A DNA stretch of 64,000 nt, taken from assembly GCA_025201375.1 (NCBI GenBank), contig JAIWZP010000048.1:1-64000 (forward strand). Direction: 5' to 3'. Source of the stretch: Gongronella butleri (Eukaryota > Mucoromycota > Mucoromycetes > Mucorales > Cunninghamellaceae). The notes beneath the pieces are model-generated. The model did not search any database. It was not told where the DNA came from and saw only the letters and a program-made list of their open reading frames with translations. Made by a program: the position numbers and the translations under genes. Each line of letters begins with the position of its first letter. Position 1 is the stretch's first letter. Of the stretch, positions 12,870-21,514 are shown in pieces.

Positions 12870-14102
12870 AATTGAGCACCCTTTAAAGGAAACAGACCCT
12901 CTTAGCCCAATCAGATGGCCAGGATTTCTTGCTTTTTTTTTTTTTGTTCGATTTTGACATGTACTCATTTCCTGATTGCAAGGCATTGAGTCATTCAATC
13001 ACTTTCATATTTTAACACAACATAAATAGCATATACCCGCACCTTCCATATTATTTTTAAACGGATAGACACAAATTCAAGAGCATAGCGCGTCAAGGTG
13101 TAGAATTTTCTCATTTTTTTTCCCAGTTCAAAATCTCTTCCTCACAACCTTTACCTTTTCTCATCCTCTAGAATTGCTATCGATATCATATTTTCAGAGA
13201 ACATGTCAAAGACTCACTTAAATATCTAACGTTTTCCTTGAAAATTCAGCTCTCTAGACGCAAATCCTTAATTTGAGCTTGCTGTCATTATAGGGGAACC
13301 GATTGCTGGTCCCAAGCGCCACTCAACGCCATCTGAGCCCTCGTGTGTCGTAGGCGACGCATCGAACAGCTTTTTTCTTGTATAATGCGAAAAAAGAGAG
13401 AGTCGCGCCACGTGCCCTTTTTCTTCGCATTTTACAAGAACAAAACTGCTCGATGCGCTGCCCAATGACACCGGATGGCAAGGGTGGGCGTCGATATTCA
13501 TCGACGTGGAGGCGGCACCAGCTTCGATGATACGGACATCTTCTCGTTCTCTTGCAGCAGATTGATTAAGTTGGTCAATTTGGGTTATAGGAACCTCGTT
13601 TCGATCGCCATTTTTCTTGGAAGTGAGCTGTCGTCCTTGGACAGGACTACTTTGTGGCTACACCTATCTCGCGCCAGAGCAAGCTTGCTTGGATGGACCC
13701 TCCCAATCCATGTGAGTTTGGATAAGAACTGTCCTTTCCTTTTTGTAGAAAAATTCACTCATAAAGGTGCAAGTAGTGAGAAAAAAGAATAGCATATCAA
13801 AAAGAATGAGGAAGAGGAGTGTCATCCCACCCCCAAAACCGTGTGAAATACTAGATTTGTACATTCATACGCACCGCAATTTTTTTTTTTTTTTGCAAGG
13901 ACCTAACTAAACTACGCAAAAAAAGTGTTGAAAAATATTAAAAGAGCTGACGAATTTAATTTGGATCCTTTCACCTTCAACGCAAAAGCAAAAAGAATTC
14001 AAAACTATCAATCACACGCGTTTTGCTGTTCTCTGGCTCAAATTCCAGCGCTTGGCTCAATTCTGAGCAATGTGGCTCAATTTCCGAGAGAGCGACCCAA
14101 TA
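12870..14102. other. AT-rich gap, no convincing gene
   Basis: Contains short ORFs such as 13475-13792 (+) and 13268-13501 (-) with no family signature, and homopolymer runs. The sequence CGACCCAA at 14093-14100 precedes the TA target of the mariner-like element. Confidence 0.5.
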
Positions 14103-14312
14103 CTGGATTTGTCCAATCAGATCGCGCGAAACACTTTTTTTTATACGTGCAAATTAAAAAAGTTTGCGTGCAAATCAGATTGAGCACGCGCAAAGTGGAA
14201 TTGAGGTGCGCGCGGATTGCTGGTTAGAGACGCGCAAAGTGGAATTGAGGTGCGCGCAGGTTGCTGGTTAGAGACGCGCAAAGTGGAATTGAGGTGCGCG
14301 CATATTGCTAGT
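14103..14312 (+). repeat. Left terminal inverted repeat, with 44-bp direct repeats
   Basis: Matches the reverse complement of 19197-19406 nearly base for base over 210 bp. Its inner half is three direct repeats of 44 bp, with the segment CAAAGTGGAATTGAGGTGCG starting at 14191, 14235 and 14279. Such repeated subterminal motifs are often transposase binding sites. Confidence 0.92.
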
Positions 14313-14403
14313 TAGAAACGCGCATATTTCTTGGGTAATTCAAATCTCAATGGTCTGATCTATTTCCACATAAAACATGTCTCTGTTGATGGCTCGTGCG
14401 TGG

Positions 14404-15030
14404 TTATAATTCAGGGTCTCGGACGCGCTTCACCATTGACAAATGATATGTCAGAGTCAAGCAATTGCATAAATTTGGCATTAGCTCAGCATAATTGAGC
14501 CGTTCCTCCGTGATAAACTGTAGATTAACCAAAGTTGTCAATTCCGTGACATGACAGCATGTGGACGCGTCAAGACCGCGTATGGCCAAGTAGGACATTG
14601 TATGAACGCACGCAAATGAGATTTTCTCATTTTATTTTTTTTCTCAGGCTTGCACGTGCCCAGATCCTGGTCAATGCAATCTCTGTTCATACATGACAAA
14701 TGATGCATCTTAGCAGGGTGCGTACGATAGGGCGCATATCGGAAAGGAAGCGCTATACTTTTATGAATGATAGAATCGCGATTAAAAAGTGATGAACCTG
14801 CAGTAGCAGCCATTGCGTGAGTTGAGCTTGATTAGCCGGACTATGCAAGAGCAACTGTTCACCTTGTTTTCAATCCATTGAAGCGGCAATGAGAAAAGCG
14901 CGACGCGATTGCATCGTTTTTCCTTTTTTACCCCCTTCTAATGCAACTACATGTGCAGACACGGACAGCGCGTACGTCTTGGGTAATCGTGCATTCTCTT
15001 TTACATGGTTATACAGCATTTGACACGACA
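14404..15030. repeat. Dispersed repeat family A, copy 1
   Basis: Shares long near-identical stretches, in the same orientation, with 30720-31310. Examples are TATGGCCAAGT, CTCAGGCTTGCACGTGCCCA, ATTAGCCGGACTA and ATTCTCTTTTACATGG. The second copy lies outside the mariner-like element and lacks the adjacent transposase relative. No long ORF. Confidence 0.75.
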
Positions 15031-15052
15031 TCAACCAGTTTTATTTTTATTT

Positions 15053-16027
15053 TTACATAGTGTTAAATTTAGTGAAGTGTTGTCTATAATTGTTCTCGCA
15101 ATTTGTGATAATGTCTACGAAGTATTTTGGGTCAATCAAGCTCAACGCGTTGTGAAATCGCGCTGTGGTTGTGGCGTCACTTGCTTTTTGGCTAAACTTC
15201 ATGACCATTTCCTTCCAAAACTGCTGACATGGATCTAATTCGCAATCGATGTGAGGAATTCTCAAGTACTTGAAACCATTACTAATCGCATGTTGTTGAA
15301 CAACAACGTTCTTATCCAAGGACAAGCCGTTTACTATGATGAAACAGCCTTGGTAACCTTGCTTCAGCTGATCCAACGAATCACACAGGAATTTGCAATA
15401 CTGATCGTCATGGACATTGGTATGGTGTGGGACTTGCAATCTAAAATTGGCGACACCAATAGAACAAAGTGCGACCATGGCCCTTCGCGTCTGTTGAGGG
15501 GCTTTTGGACGGGTTGCGGCTGACGAGTAAGGAATATGCGAATTGAACAAGTCGAACGTGGTTTCGCCGAAAAAAATGCAGTTTTGCAAGTAATTCATGG
15601 TCGGCTCTGACCATCCAATAAGAAACTCGTCCCGTTCAGCGGCTACATCATAATGAACAGGTAGAGAAACTGGACGCAATGACAAGGAGATAGAAAAATC
15701 GTTCTTAATCCAAGTGCTAATGGCGGATTTGGTGATATCGAGATCCATGAATTGGTCACAGAGATCTTTGTGGATGTCAACGATCGTCAAATTTGCGTTG
15801 TTGTCGCCAATGCGTGCTTTGATGTATGCCTTGTGTTCATCACTAATCTGGTTCTTTGCGGCCGCCTTCTTGCGTCTCTTAAGGCTGGAGAATTCCTTGT
15901 ACCATCGATTAACACTACTCGGTGGCATTCCAAATTTCTTTGCTGCAGCACGGCCACTGGCACGAGTTTCCAGCATGTAATTGATCACCTCGTTCTTTTT
16001 TTCTTCAGATAAATGAGACTTCGGCAT
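15053..16027 (-). CDS. Full-length Tc1/mariner transposase relative without catalytic residues
   Basis: Uninterrupted 324-codon ORF, start ATG at 16027. Residues 5-45 and about 75-110 look like the paired helix-turn-helix DNA-binding domain (RASGRAAAKKFGMPPSSVNRW). The DDE fold is recognisable, but aligned with the intact transposase at 17608-19077 the first Asp is Gly154 (CIFFGETTF against CVFLDEAGF), the second is Asn233 (IVNGLSLDK against VMDNAPIHK) and the Glu is Gln268 (DPCQQFW against NPIEEFW). The 34-residue spacing between the last two positions is kept. A preserved frame with all three acids lost suggests a DNA-binding regulator or domesticated protein; a young dead copy is the alternative. 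Confidence 0.8.
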   Translation of the reverse strand: MPKSHLSEEKKNEVINYMLETRASGRAAAKKFGMPPSSVNRWYKEFSSLKRRKKAAAKNQISDEHKAYIKARIGDNNANLTIVDIHKDLCDQFMDLDITKSAISTWIKNDFSISLSLRPVSLPVHYDVAAERDEFLIGWSEPTMNYLQNCIFFGETTFDLFNSHIPYSSAATRPKAPQQTRRAMVALCSIGVANFRLQVPHHTNVHDDQYCKFLCDSLDQLKQGYQGCFIIVNGLSLDKNVVVQQHAISNGFKYLRIPHIDCELDPCQQFWKEMVMKFSQKASDATTTARFHNALSLIDPKYFVDIITNCENNYRQHFTKFNTM

Positions 16028-16159
16028 TGAAACGTAAAAAGATCAAAAAAAGGGCCTGCGCAAAGACTACAACAACACAAACATCACCTTTGAAATACTG
16101 TGCCCTCAACGTGCCGCGCGTCAATTGCGCCGACATTTTAGAAAAGTCGTGCAACAGTC

Positions 16160-16505
16160 AACAGCCATTGTGCGACAAAAAAAAAAAAAAGTGGGACATT
16201 TTCAACTGCCATTGCCATTGAGCGACAAAAAAAAAAAAAAAATGCGCCATTTCAACCGCCACCGCCATTGTGCGACAAAAAAAAAAAAAAAGTGGGACAT
16301 TTTCAACTGCCATTGCCATTGAGCGACAAAAAAAAAAAAAAAGTGTGCCATTTTCAACCACCACCGCCATTGTGCGACAAAAAAAAAAAAAAAGTGGGAC
16401 ACTTTCAACTGCCATTGCCATTGAGCGACAAAAAAAAAAAAAAGTGTGCCATTTTCAACCACCACCGCCATTGTGCGACAAAAAAAAAAAAAAGTGGGAC
16501 ATTTC
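16160..16505. repeat. Tandem array of about seven 50-bp units of two alternating types
   Basis: Each unit ends in GCGAC plus 13-16 A. GCGAC starts at about 16172, 16222, 16272, 16323, 16374, 16425 and 16475, so the period is 50-51 bp. Type A units read GTGGGACATTTTCAACTGCC with the spacer ending GAGCGAC. Type B units read GTGTGCCATTTTCAACCACC (one is ATGCGCC...) with the spacer ending TGTGCGAC. A and B alternate, so the higher-order period is about 101 bp. Confidence 0.92.
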
Positions 16506-16570
16506 ATCTGCAAAATGGAAACGGTAAAAAAAAATGGCCGAGTGCGACATTTCAAATGCACTTTGAACTT

Positions 16571-16880
16571 AATAAAACAATCAAAAACAATCAAAAACAA
16601 TCAAAAACGATCAAAAACGATCAAAAACGATCAAAAACGATCAAAAACGATCAAAAACGATCAAATCATGGCAAACAGGTTTTTCTGTGGTCCCTGATTA
16701 GCAAACCCGGCGAAAAAAAAAACGTTTAAAAACAATCAAAAACAATCAAAAACAATCAAAAACGTTCAAAAACGTTCAAAAACAATCAAAAGCAATCAAA
16801 TCATGGCAAACAGGTTTTTTCGACGGTCCCTGAATCACGGCAAACAGGGTTTTTTCAGCGGCCCCTGATTGCCAAACCCG
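16571..16880. repeat. 10-bp AATCAAAAAC arrays with duplicated flanks
   Basis: Ten-base units (AATCAAAAAC, GATCAAAAAC, GTTCAAAAAC) fill 16571-16665 and again 16729-16803. Each array is followed by TCATGGCAAACAGG, a T run, and GGTCCCTGA; a further partial copy lies at 16834-16880. The whole block is therefore a two- to three-fold duplication. Confidence 0.85.
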
Positions 16881-16900
16881 GCCAAAAAAAGAATAAGTTA

Positions 16901-17401
16901 TCAAGCACGTACTTTTATTGGAATCTGGATTCTGGGGCCAAGCAGGGCGTAAATTTCAGGTTCCTGCTCGTAGAGTTGCACCCAGCCACGAGCGGCGTCT
17001 TTGCGGTACTTTTTGACGTATTTGTTCACCGTCGCCTGACAGACTTTCAGGCGTGCAGCCAATTCTCGTTCAGTTGGCGTCGCATCGCCTTTTGCCAAAA
17101 CAAGTCCTTCGATGATGGCAAGTTTTACTTGCAGGCAAATCGGCCGCCTGCCGCGTCTTCTGGGATCTAAAATCATAATCGGCTCGTCGACCACGGGCGC
17201 ATTCACCGTTGGTGCTTCCATTGAAGCGTTGCCCACAGGCAGTCCCGTGCCAGGTGTCGTTTTAAACGTCTGCATTAGGAAATTGATGCTTTGTGGAGTT
17301 TCTTCCAACTGCGCTTGCATATCCATGAAGTCAATGTTGTTCCGATCCAGGTGGTGATGAGCTGGTCGTCTCCTTTGCACAAAGTTGCCGAGATAGTTCA
17401 T
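16901..17401 (-). CDS. Helix-turn-helix protein of the mariner-like element
   Basis: 166 codons from the ATG at 17401 (MNYLGNFVQRRRP). Upstream in-frame codons to 17434 are possible, but the shorter start faces the shared promoter. Residues about 90-150 form a transposase-type HTH: RRRGRRPICLQVKLAIIEG, then TERELAARLKVCQATVNKY and KYRKD. There is no DDE domain. The neighbouring transposase has its own HTH (AKDAGLAVGINIRTAQSYVKRY), so this is a second, separate DNA-binding protein. Transcribed divergently from the transposase; a regulator or end-binding accessory role is inferred. A truncated transposase is the alternative. Confidence 0.6.
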   Translation of the reverse strand: MNYLGNFVQRRRPAHHHLDRNNIDFMDMQAQLEETPQSINFLMQTFKTTPGTGLPVGNASMEAPTVNAPVVDEPIMILDPRRRGRRPICLQVKLAIIEGLVLAKGDATPTERELAARLKVCQATVNKYVKKYRKDAARGWVQLYEQEPEIYALLGPRIQIPIKVRA

Positions 17402-17607
17402 TTTCACAGTTGACGTTATCAATAAAACAAGCACAATAATAAACAGAGAAGAAAAACGCCATTTGGGCGTCGCAAGACGAGAGACAAACAGGGAGACGCG
17501 ACCGTAAGTGACACGAAAATTAGTTCAAGACGCCACACAGCGTATAAATACGCTTGTTTTTTTTTTTTTTGTATTCTTGACAAATCATTATTATCACGAC
17601 TTCAAGC
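17402..17607. promoter_or_regulatory. Divergent promoter between HTH gene and transposase
   Basis: 206 bases separate the two start codons. A TATA-like CGTATAAATACG lies at 17541-17552, about 55 bases before the transposase ATG, followed by a T-rich tract. Repeat-free, unlike the arrays on its left. Confidence 0.5.
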
Positions 17608-19077
17608 ATGTCCATTGACAATACTACCTGGGTCTATAGAGTGCCGAATGATGATGGGAACTCCTCCTCCTCTGTGGCAGATGCAGAAGACATGGTTTCG
17701 GCGTTCATTGATGAAATGGTGTTTCAAGAAGACGTGGACATGGAGATTGAGGCGGCTCCGGCCGTTGAAATCAATCAATTCAGCCAATTCAATGTGGTAG
17801 AACGAGATTGGAAGAAGCAAGATGATGGGACAATCATGACGCTCGATGACTACGAAGAGGCATACATCAAGCGCCCTATGCCTGTGGACAACAATAAGGC
17901 AGCCCCTGGACAAGATGAAGAGATGACCCTGCCTCTTACTCCCAAGCGCGGTCAATATCGCAAGTACACCACGGAGCAGGTCCAATCGCTCATCCACAAG
18001 GTCATTGAGCTAGGTACACAGAGAAAATGCACAAAAAAAGAGAACAAAGACTCATGCGATTATTAATTGTCAGGAATGACAGCCAAGGACGCCGGCTTGG
18101 CTGTTGGAATCAATATTCGGACGGCACAGTCGTACGTGAAGCGATACAGGGACGATGCTGAGGGGCGTTTGCCGATTTCTCGCGCTGGCCATGGGCGTGG
18201 TGGCAATCGCAAGCTTTTTGAACAACATACCGCGTTCCTTGTCGATCTTTGGGACAACAACGCGGCCATCACGCTCGCTGAGGCACGCGACGAGCTCAAG
18301 AGCCAATTCGACATCACGATCACATTGTCTGGTCTTCGCAAGCATGTCGTCAAGCATTGTCGCGTGACTTTAAAGAAGCTCGAGAAGCTGCCGGCCGCGC
18401 GAAACTCCGAGCGCATCATCGAGCTGCGTTACGAGAAGGTGATGGCATGGCGCAACCAGCCCGACCTCGATTACCTCGCCAATTGCGTCTTCCTTGACGA
18501 GGCGGGCTTTAATCTGCACCTTCGCCGAGGATTTGGGTGGTCCAAAGTCGGCACGCCGGCGAAAGCGGTCGTCCCCACGCAAAAAGGGGTCAACATCACG
18601 ATCATGGGCGCCATGTGCGAACTGGGAGTGGTTGCACTGCAGCTGCGGAAGCCAACCGTGTGCACGCGCGTCAAGGATGGCAAGAAGGTGAAAGGCGTCG
18701 TAGGCACACGGACAGAGGATTATATGGCCTTCATCAACAGGGTGATGGACGTCCTCGACTCCCGCCAAATGAAGGGTCGCTACCTGGTGATGGACAACGC
18801 GCCCATTCACAAGTCACCCGTGATCGCCGAATTGGTGGGATCCCGTGGATACAGGACGTTGTACTTGCCTCCCTGGTCCCCGTTCCTCAACCCAATTGAG
18901 GAATTTTGGTCGAAGGTCAAGGCTGGCGTCCGTCGGTCACAGCTGACGGACAGCGATTCGCTGACGCCTCGTATTTTGGAGTCGACGAGGCGTGTCACAC
19001 CTGAGGATTGCTGTGGGTGGATCCGCCATTCAATCTCGTTTTTTGACCGTTGCATCAAACGAGAAAAAAATCTTTAA
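17608..19077 (+). CDS. Tc1/mariner DD34E transposase, intact
   Basis: Two exons, 17608-18013 and 18074-19077, joined across a 60-nt GT-AG intron; 469 aa. The first 110 residues are acidic and poorly conserved. Then follow an HTH (residues about 125-165), a second helical DNA-binding region, and the catalytic domain with VFLDEAGF, VMDNAPIH and NPIEEFW. There are 34 residues between the second Asp and the Glu, as in Tc1-type enzymes. All three catalytic acids and the frame are intact, the element ends match and the TA duplications are present, so recent activity is plausible (inference). The enzyme cuts and pastes the element at TA sites. Confidence 0.92.
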
Positions 19078-19196
19078 AAATAAAAATAAAAAAATGGGTG
19101 GTTGGGTGGGCACAAAAATTATGTATTGTGCAGTATGCACTGTGGGATGAATGGACCAACTAGACTACAACAGCGGGATTTTTTTTTGCGCCCCAC

Positions 19197-19406
19197 ACCA
19201 GCAATCTGCGCGCACCTCAATTCCACTTTGCGCGTCTCTAACCAGCAACCTGCGCGCACCTCAATTCCACTTTGCGCGTCTCTAACCAGCAATCCGCGCG
19301 CACCTCAATTCCACTTTGCGCGTGCTCAATCTGATTTGCACGCAAACTTTTTTAATTTGCACGTATAAAAAAAAGTGTTTCGCGCGATCTGATTGGACAA
19401 ATCCAG
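19197..19406 (-). repeat. Right terminal inverted repeat
   Basis: Inverted copy of 14103-14312, including the three 44-bp subterminal repeats. The outermost base is at 19406, followed by TA. It ends 175 bases before the PEX5 start codon. Confidence 0.92.
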
Positions 19407-19581
19407 TAAAGCTGAGATTTCTGTAATCTTGGAGCGGAGCGTGAACGGGACAGGGCAAAAAATTGGCGGGTCCATTTACCCCACCATTTTCCTTCACCTT
19501 CGTTTTCTTTCCTTTTTCTTTTTCCTTGTCAACCCGCTTTGTCTCCTCCATTCCAGTCTCTCCTTGTATCTCACACCGTCC

Positions 19582-21514
19582 ATGGCATCCCAAGTCATTC
19601 AGCCCACGTACTGTGGGACCATGGCCAACCCGTTCCGCAAGCTCGCTGGCCACGTTGACGCCCACACTCTCCATACAGGCGCTACGGCAAGGTACCACCC
19701 GCACGCCACCCCGTCCAGCTCGACTCAGGTACACACGCACAGACCGCAGCGTCTGAATGTTGGCTCACCTTGCTTGATTTTACATTTTTTCAGGCCTCTT
19801 TTCGCAGCAAAAAGGCGTCGGCGAGGCACGACGCCCGGCCATTCAAGGTAAATAAGCAAAATAGCATTGGGCATGCTGGGCCCCGCCCTTTTGTGTGACA
19901 CAAACACGCCCATTTTCACATGCTTTCACTTGCTCATGCGTATTATTTTACGCAGGATGTGTCCAACGATACGATGGATATGAATTTCATCCTGTCGCAC
20001 ACATCGTGGCTCGACATGCCGCCCTCACCGCCTTTGCTCACGTCGCCTACTCTCACACAGCACCATTCGGTGTCAATGGGTACTGTCTTTTGAGAGGTAC
20101 GAGGAAATGCGGTCCATGGACTTATTTTTTTCTCTTTTTTCGTCTTTTTTAGACGAATCATCGTCCTGGGCGCGTGAATTTGACACGGCGGTACCAAAAA
20201 CACACAACGGCACGACCGATGCACGCCGCGATTCGCCTCAGCGCGCGCATGACGCGTCACAAGGCGCTGTGTCCGCGCGATACCCATGCTCAACGTGGCG
20301 TATGCCTGTGGCCGCGCCTGTGGCTCCTTTGGCACATCTGCAACAAGCGCCTGTCACGTCGTACCCGTCGCAGCAGGAGTGGGACCACCTGTTTGACCAG
20401 GTGGAGCAAGGCCAGGCGCGCGATGTGCCGCAAAAACACGGATTCAAGGAGAAACATGTGTCATCGGGCATGAACACCGCCGAGAGCACGCGCAGCAGCA
20501 CGAGCATCACTAGAATGGACGCGTCCACGGCCGACGCTGCGCCGCAGCAGCCATTGGACCGGATGGCGCGCGATGAAACGGCGAAAAATGACGAAAACGC
20601 GGGTTTGGACGCGCAGGCGTGGACGACGATAGCGTACGCGCTGCAAGAATCTGACCAGGAAGATGCGGCGGTGGAGGCATTTAAGTGTGCGCTGGATTTG
20701 GACTGCACGGTGCTCGATGCGTGGCTGGGGATGGCTTTTAGCCTGACGAATCAGAGGGAGCGGCGCAAAGTGTACGAGTGTTTGGAGAATTGGCTGCTCC
20801 AGCACGGGCAATACCGACATCTTCTTGTTGCTTCCACGCACAATCATGAAAACGTCGATGACGACGCGGGTCGGCACGCGCACCTGGTGTCGCAGTATTT
20901 GGCGGCGGCTCGATTGGGCCACATGGATTCGGTGCTGGACATTGACGTGCAATTGATCCTCGGCCTGCTTTTCTACCTGGACAATGACCTCATTAAAGCG
21001 CGCGATTGCTTCCAAACAGCCGTTTTACATCGACCCGAGGATCATCGGCTGTGGAATCATCTGGGCGCTATTCACGCCGCGCTTCATCCATCAACAGATG
21101 CCGTCGATCTGTACAAAAACGCGCTGCACCTGCACCCAACCTTTGTGCGCGCTCATTACAATCTCGCCATCGCCTACATGAACGACGCAAAATACAAACA
21201 CGCTGCACACCATCTCGTCACAGCTCTCGCGTGCCAGCAACAACAGCTCCGCCGCATCAATGCCGCCAATGCACCACGAAGTGCGATTTACGCGTCACCG
21301 CCAACCTCCACGTCCCTCTGGTCGAGCCTGCGTCTCGTCATGTACCTGTAAGTTCTGAAAAAAAAATCAAAACAGCAAAATGGGACGCCTCTGATTCGTT
21401 ATTCTTTTTATACACGCCAGACTCAATGAAGATGACCTTGCACGGAGTTGCAACCAAGAAGATTTAACGCCGTTTCACGCGTTTTTACGCGACCCAGGCA
21501 CCGCGGCGCCATGA
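19582..21514 (+). CDS. PEX5: Peroxisomal targeting signal 1 receptor PEX5
   Basis: Exons 19582-19728, 19794-19847, 19956-20079, 20153-21347 and 21421-21514; 537 aa. The N-terminus has CGTMANPFRKL, the conserved block holding the cysteine that is monoubiquitinated for receptor recycling. WxxxF/Y-type PEX14/PEX13-binding motifs include SWAREF and EWDHLF. The C-terminal half is TPR repeats (about residues 215-500), with ALHLHPTFVRAHYNLAIAYM and LWSSLRLVMYLL as in known PEX5. It binds PTS1 cargo in the cytosol and docks at the peroxisome membrane. The linker is shorter and more diverged than usual. The start was chosen after a CT-rich leader. The mariner-like element ends just upstream and could affect its promoter. 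Confidence 0.9.

Follow-up and report, generated by a model that had tools for sequence, protein, structure and literature searches.

The window analysed here is a stretch of 64,000 nucleotides that forms part of contig C54 in the 33.0 Mb genome (110 contigs) of Gongronella butleri, a mould of the family Cunninghamellaceae (Mucorales). Positions 14103-19406 of the window hold a complete IS630-Tc1-mariner element with three genes, A, B and C. These coordinates coincide with those of the original prediction, and the TA duplications and 210-bp inverted ends on which it relied are present. Inspection of the sequence places the TA target duplications at 14101-14102 on the left and 19407-19408 on the right. 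The terminal inverted repeats (left, 14103-14312, plus strand; right, 19197-19406, minus strand) are identical at 208 of 210 positions. TA duplication, inverted repeats and a DDE transposase with DD34E spacing are together the distinguishing features of the superfamily, and all are found in the element and gene C.

Within each end, a repeat search located three direct repeats spaced by 44 bp, at 14186-14324 (plus strand, family D4) and 19183-19323 (minus strand, family D5). The 44-bp subterminal repeats of the original prediction are thus head-to-tail triplets in the subfamily of the window; in the three diverged copies, the core motif of the repeat occurs once or twice per end. A repeat-rich spacer with 50-bp and 10-bp repeats (16142-16900, families D1-D3, D6 and D7) lies between A and B, and a second spacer of 206 bp (17402-17607) separates the start codons of the divergent genes B and C. 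The repeat search of the element detected no inverted ends belonging to A or B themselves. Inside the element, 11-12-mers of the inverted repeat match only an A-rich spacer, with none near the B-C promoter. A gene for a TPR-repeat protein (window positions 19393-21351) follows directly downstream; we take its product to resemble the peroxisomal receptor PEX5, and the element may sit in the promoter of this gene.

Products of genes C, A and B

Gene C lies on the plus strand and comprises exon 1 (17608-18013), a GT..AG intron of 60 bp predicted from the sequence (18014-18073) and exon 2 (18074-19077), which encodes the DD34E catalytic domain with catalytic codons at 18496, 18793 and 18898. The product, spliced at the predicted intron, has 469 aa. 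It matches the Pfam model DDE_3 (E 3.7e-26) and, in a sequence comparison with solved structures, Sleeping Beauty (E 8.5e-7). An intact DD34E transposase gene had been predicted and this proved accurate: the frame is open, with 98 residues from D1 to D2 and 34 from D2 to E. We infer that C is a cut-and-paste transposase acting at TA sites via the 210-bp ends.

Gene A (15053-16027, minus strand, start at 16027) encodes a full-length transposase paralogue of 324 aa, whose homology to C is evident from an hhalign E-value of 7e-30 over 301 columns. Alignment with C places G154, N233 and Q268 at the positions of the catalytic triad. Across the A proteins these positions read GNQ, DNK, DSK or DNQ, none of which is a DDE/D triad, and both D2 and E are gone wherever an A row extends across them. 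The claim of a second full-length transposase relative stripped of its catalytic acids is thus upheld, the loss being conserved among copies. The protein is basic (pI 8.7) and contains two predicted HTH modules, and its predicted model, built on an alignment that included C relatives, has a Mos1/SETMAR-like transposase fold.

The substitution pattern of A is that of a maintained protein. Over 324 codons, the window and locus L018 differ at 80 first, 57 second and 158 third positions, with a median NG86 bootstrap dN/dS of 0.17 (0.09-0.25). The window-L019 and L018-L019 comparisons give 0.18 (0.09-0.27) and 0.17 (0.11-0.27), ratios against the window being rough given synonymous distances to it above 1. 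In L020, where A is broken, the second part of the gene gives 0.11-0.12 and the first part 0.42 (0.23-0.69) against L018, the latter as expected from weaker constraint or from decay at a later stage. The NG86 ratio against L012 is 0.69; this piece comes from a broken copy with its tail out of frame. By domain, three comparisons yield 0.13-0.15 for the RNase-H-like part and 0.22-0.25 for the DNA-binding part, with overlapping intervals. The proportion of residues invariant among four A proteins is 28% in HTH1, 39% in HTH2, 39% in the linker and 36% in the RNase-H-like domain, an order that, unlike dN/dS, puts HTH2 above the RNase-H-like domain. Since constraint reaches the RNase-H-like part as well as the HTH modules, the whole fold of A is kept, and not the DNA-binding helices alone. 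Judged from these codon comparisons, A is under purifying selection, its dead RNase-H-like domain included.

Gene B (16901-17401, minus strand) encodes a basic protein of 166 aa (pI 9.6) with weak HTH-like character. It had been described as an HTH-only protein divergent from the active gene. The divergent orientation stands; the HTH assignment is tentative, the best Pfam match being GntR at E 0.0026, below the model cut-off. No Pfam model scored above its cut-off, and there was no zinc-finger or kinase match. A single-sequence structure model is uninformative (pLDDT 39), and hhalign relates B to C only weakly (E 0.012, probability 4%). Counted from the ATG, the frame in the window has 166 aa; the stop-to-stop frames have 200 codons in L020 and 303 in L018. 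With window B as query, the L020 copy is recovered at E 7.7e-16 and the L018 copy at E 1.4e-4, and conservation lies mostly in the last ~75 residues. B is a positional gene of the element family, and its HTH label is a lead only. In a public gene model from contig C23, the contig of L020, part of B is fused to part of A in the same direction (P0003), either as a prediction artefact or as a hint of joint splicing.

Copies, relatives and a sister lineage

Pieces of 378-2009 bp that are 99.8-100% identical to the element occur on eight contigs, each ending inside the element: left-half pieces on C81, C16 and C12 and right-half pieces on C104, C86, C15, C6 and C5. The outer flank is different in each and all end in TA; TA flanks are also found in L018, L019 and L020. 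Near identity combined with different TA flanks points to recent transposition. Since these pieces stop at contig ends, the assembly broke on the element and such copies are unreadable from end to end.

Complete reading is possible for four copies: the window, L018 and L019 (both on C44) and L020 (C23). In aligned DNA, L018 and L019 are 69-72% and L020 66-80% identical to the window. The three genes are arranged identically in all four, both in order and in orientation, though some of them are broken. In the window and L018, A, B and C exon 2 all have open frames; in L019, B is in pieces, interrupted by ~0.57 kb of inserted DNA; in L020, A is split between frames and C has one stop. The original prediction had treated the locus as one unit and not as nested insertions, and the four readable copies in the G. 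butleri genome agree: independent copies keep the three genes at the same positions, and none of the four has the C gene alone.

Eleven C-like loci are at least 76% identical to C over nearly all of exon 2 (the one on C6 from residue 25). Five of these are at contig ends and cannot be followed as far as A, which is present in four of the remaining six. At C78:324980 and C67:274141 the fetched stretch contains no A and no inverted end; these loci look like relics rather than intact A-less elements. The genome search, which scored best candidates only and may have missed relics, found A at seven places: C54, C81, twice on C44, C23, C34 (a left half-element with a broken A frame) and C32 (an A fragment beside a B fragment). 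All are in elements or element pieces, and host domestication of A is unsupported. The left part on C34 (L012) and a right part on C78 (L029) belong to one subfamily, each 96% identical to the window; they are possibly one element split by rearrangement. Similar ends also mark eight short loci (L021-L028) without A, B or C inside. Five of these loci hold six elements (two in L022) with both TA-flanked tips, 0.8-1.4 kb apart, and such gene-less elements are probably non-autonomous riders.

A sister lineage is represented by L031-L036, whose transposases are ~55-57% identical to C (49-57% for the best pieces in L035 and L036). The fetched stretches gave C-like matches only, and no A proper. L032 and L033 are 97% alike over 4.75 kb, and the lineage has thus moved recently without A. 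A divergent HTH-like gene, F, is present at L031:7576-8166, L035:8802-9386, L032:6463-6993 and L033:1094-1624, and is broken at L034:2534-3042. Partial F-like stretches also occur in tandem in L031 and L035. Homology of B to F finds no support (hhalign E 0.53), and the similarity of the A N terminus to F is suggestive only (E 0.0017, probability 15%). Behind C, on the minus strand, L031 (3630-4679) and L035 (3762-5021) carry a second transposase-like ORF in which D2 is replaced by N; L036 holds a near-identical partial copy. This ORF is sister to the C of L031 (support 100/98) on a long branch, and its dN/dS of 0.63 does not indicate strong constraint. The ORF may mark a second beginning of the trend seen in A, or it may simply be decaying.

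The two halves of the element have different histories. Between L018 and L019, identity is 91% for the A half and 98.6% for the C half. The A half of L020 is 79% identical to L018 and 70% to the window; for the C half the values are 70% to L018 and 78.6% to the window. The C tree is ((window, L020), (P0004, (L018, L019))), with 93/42 at the P0004 fork, and the A tree is (P0002, (window, (L019, (L018, L020)))). As kinship between copies differs from one half to the other, an exchange of halves seems to have taken place; despite this reassortment, a single A and a single C are present in every complete element. The tree contains 43 rows, with 27 of the 120 listed C relatives, P0004 among those; the broken A of L012, the C genes of L033, L035 and L036 and the outgroups L048 and L050 were left out. 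Alignment A2 includes 19 database proteins, and A4 includes 39 such proteins besides P0004's group. The deep placement of A is uncertain owing to the long branches that join at that point.

Outside the genome, the best 120 of 525 database matches to C include relatives named in Mucor, Rhizopus, Circinella and Parasitella. Among the matches listed, the closest outside the window is P0004 (68%), which is nested in the clade formed by the C genes of A-bearing G. butleri elements (99/96). With A as query against 5.8 billion proteins, the search returned two G. butleri proteins and P0002 (332 aa, 44% identity), and a profile search added two further G. butleri pieces and nothing else. P0002 comes from a JGI contig of 5,095 bp. 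P0004 is found on two contigs, also from JGI, the longest being 5,095 bp. Because of this common length, the A relative and the C relative probably share one metagenome contig. Viral contigs scanned with the A and C alignments gave no confirmed relative.

Possible roles of A

Taken together, these observations would fit a recently active three-gene Tc1/mariner element in which C cuts and pastes at TA. A would be an ancient paralogue of C that has lost catalysis and that selection maintains as a component of the element. With its two HTH modules and RNase-H-like fold, it could join C on the element ends without cutting and in this way mould or adjust the paired-end complex, as the PgmL proteins, which have no catalytic site, do with PiggyMac in Paramecium. 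B would be a small, basic, possibly DNA-binding protein. We therefore propose for A, tentatively and at a little under an even chance, the role of a maintained, non-catalytic partner to C: an architectural or modulating subunit. This proposal draws on the retention of A, B and C in all four complete copies, the P0002/P0004 pair, the loss of the triad together with a dN/dS of 0.17 and the domain ratios, the predicted fold, the pairing of one A with one C despite reassortment and the precedent of PgmL. The movement of C relatives without A in L032 and L033 counts against it, as do the broken A genes of L020 and L012 and the domain figures, whose dN/dS intervals overlap and whose invariant share is no higher in the RNase-H-like part than in HTH2, and the free reassortment of A and C argues against tight specificity between the two. 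It is rather doubtful that the family represents a two-transposase Tc1/mariner machine in which a dead subunit of the same element is needed, perhaps having arisen twice, in A and in the second ORF of L031 and L035.

The main rival to a partner role, close to the self-regulating system of the original prediction, casts A as a dominant-negative repressor that would limit copy number by occupying the ends or forming dead mixed complexes with C. This is possible, if on the whole improbable: A has lost its triad yet has predicted HTH modules and the fold, and near-identical full copies are few in the window subfamily (the window and eight contig-end pieces). However, A is retained in 4/4 complete copies, and an element should experience little selection to restrain itself. 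The dead RNase-H-like domain of A is constrained at least as much as the DNA-binding part, within overlapping intervals, a pattern that suits a protein-contact role as well as competition for DNA sites. It seems quite unlikely that either A or B, or the two together, regulate transcription of element or host genes, with the catalytic fold of A as a mere scaffold. The basic character of both proteins and the 206 bp separating the start codons of the divergent pair B and C would suit such a function, whereas constraint on A through the RNase-H-like domain and the absence of inverted-repeat 11-12-mers near the B-C promoter would not. Nested insertions or a passenger duplicate, with A and B as unrelated leftovers riding in one copy, might be suspected from the breakage of A or B in some copies and from the typical coding of transposase only by Tc1/mariner elements (parts of PMC12242761). 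This explanation, a very improbable one, is rejected in view of the layout shared by 4/4 end-to-end copies, the lack of separate inverted ends around A and B in the repeat search and the purifying selection on A.

Comparison with known systems

Mariner-type transposons are textbook one-gene movers, and the present family keeps a dead transposase under selection. The modelled fold of A matches that of SETMAR/Metnase, a mariner transposase fold with altered function; SETMAR is a host fusion gene and not part of an element. PIF/Harbinger, En/Spm, the P element with its KP product and others combine a transposase with a second DNA-binding or inhibitory product. To our knowledge, no system of this type has as its second product a dead, full-length transposase paralogue encoded separately within a Tc1/mariner element. 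Literature searched by title and opening abstract, a range outside which the survey PMC5751038 falls, yielded no such element in fungi, and the parts of PMC7325037 and PMC4188875 that were covered describe none.

The IS630-Tc1-mariner DD34E elements of Mucorales, of which part of PMC7928374 reports >200 Tc1/mariner copies per genome, share the TA target, inverted ends and DD34E transposase of the present element. They usually have one gene (PMC12242761, in part), in contrast to the 5.3 kb, conserved dead paralogue and third gene found here. Sections of the same source present the TBE elements of Oxytricha as a surprising exception to the transposase-only rule: these are Tc1/mariner elements with three ORFs, likewise encoding a transposase and two further proteins, which in TBE are under purifying selection. 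One additional TBE product is a zinc-finger/kinase protein and the other, of 22 kDa, has no known domain, whereas one of the extra genes here encodes a dead transposase paralogue. The PgmL proteins of Paramecium, which according to parts of PMC6143343 bind PiggyMac and are essential, resemble A in being related to an active transposase while having no catalytic site. They belong to the piggyBac family and are host genes for DNA elimination, whereas A is Tc1/mariner-like and still inside a mobile element. The family is a natural setting in which to study whether a transpososome is built or held back by its non-catalytic subunits, and how ciliate-like teams of active and dead transposases could first form while their genes still reside in a mobile element.
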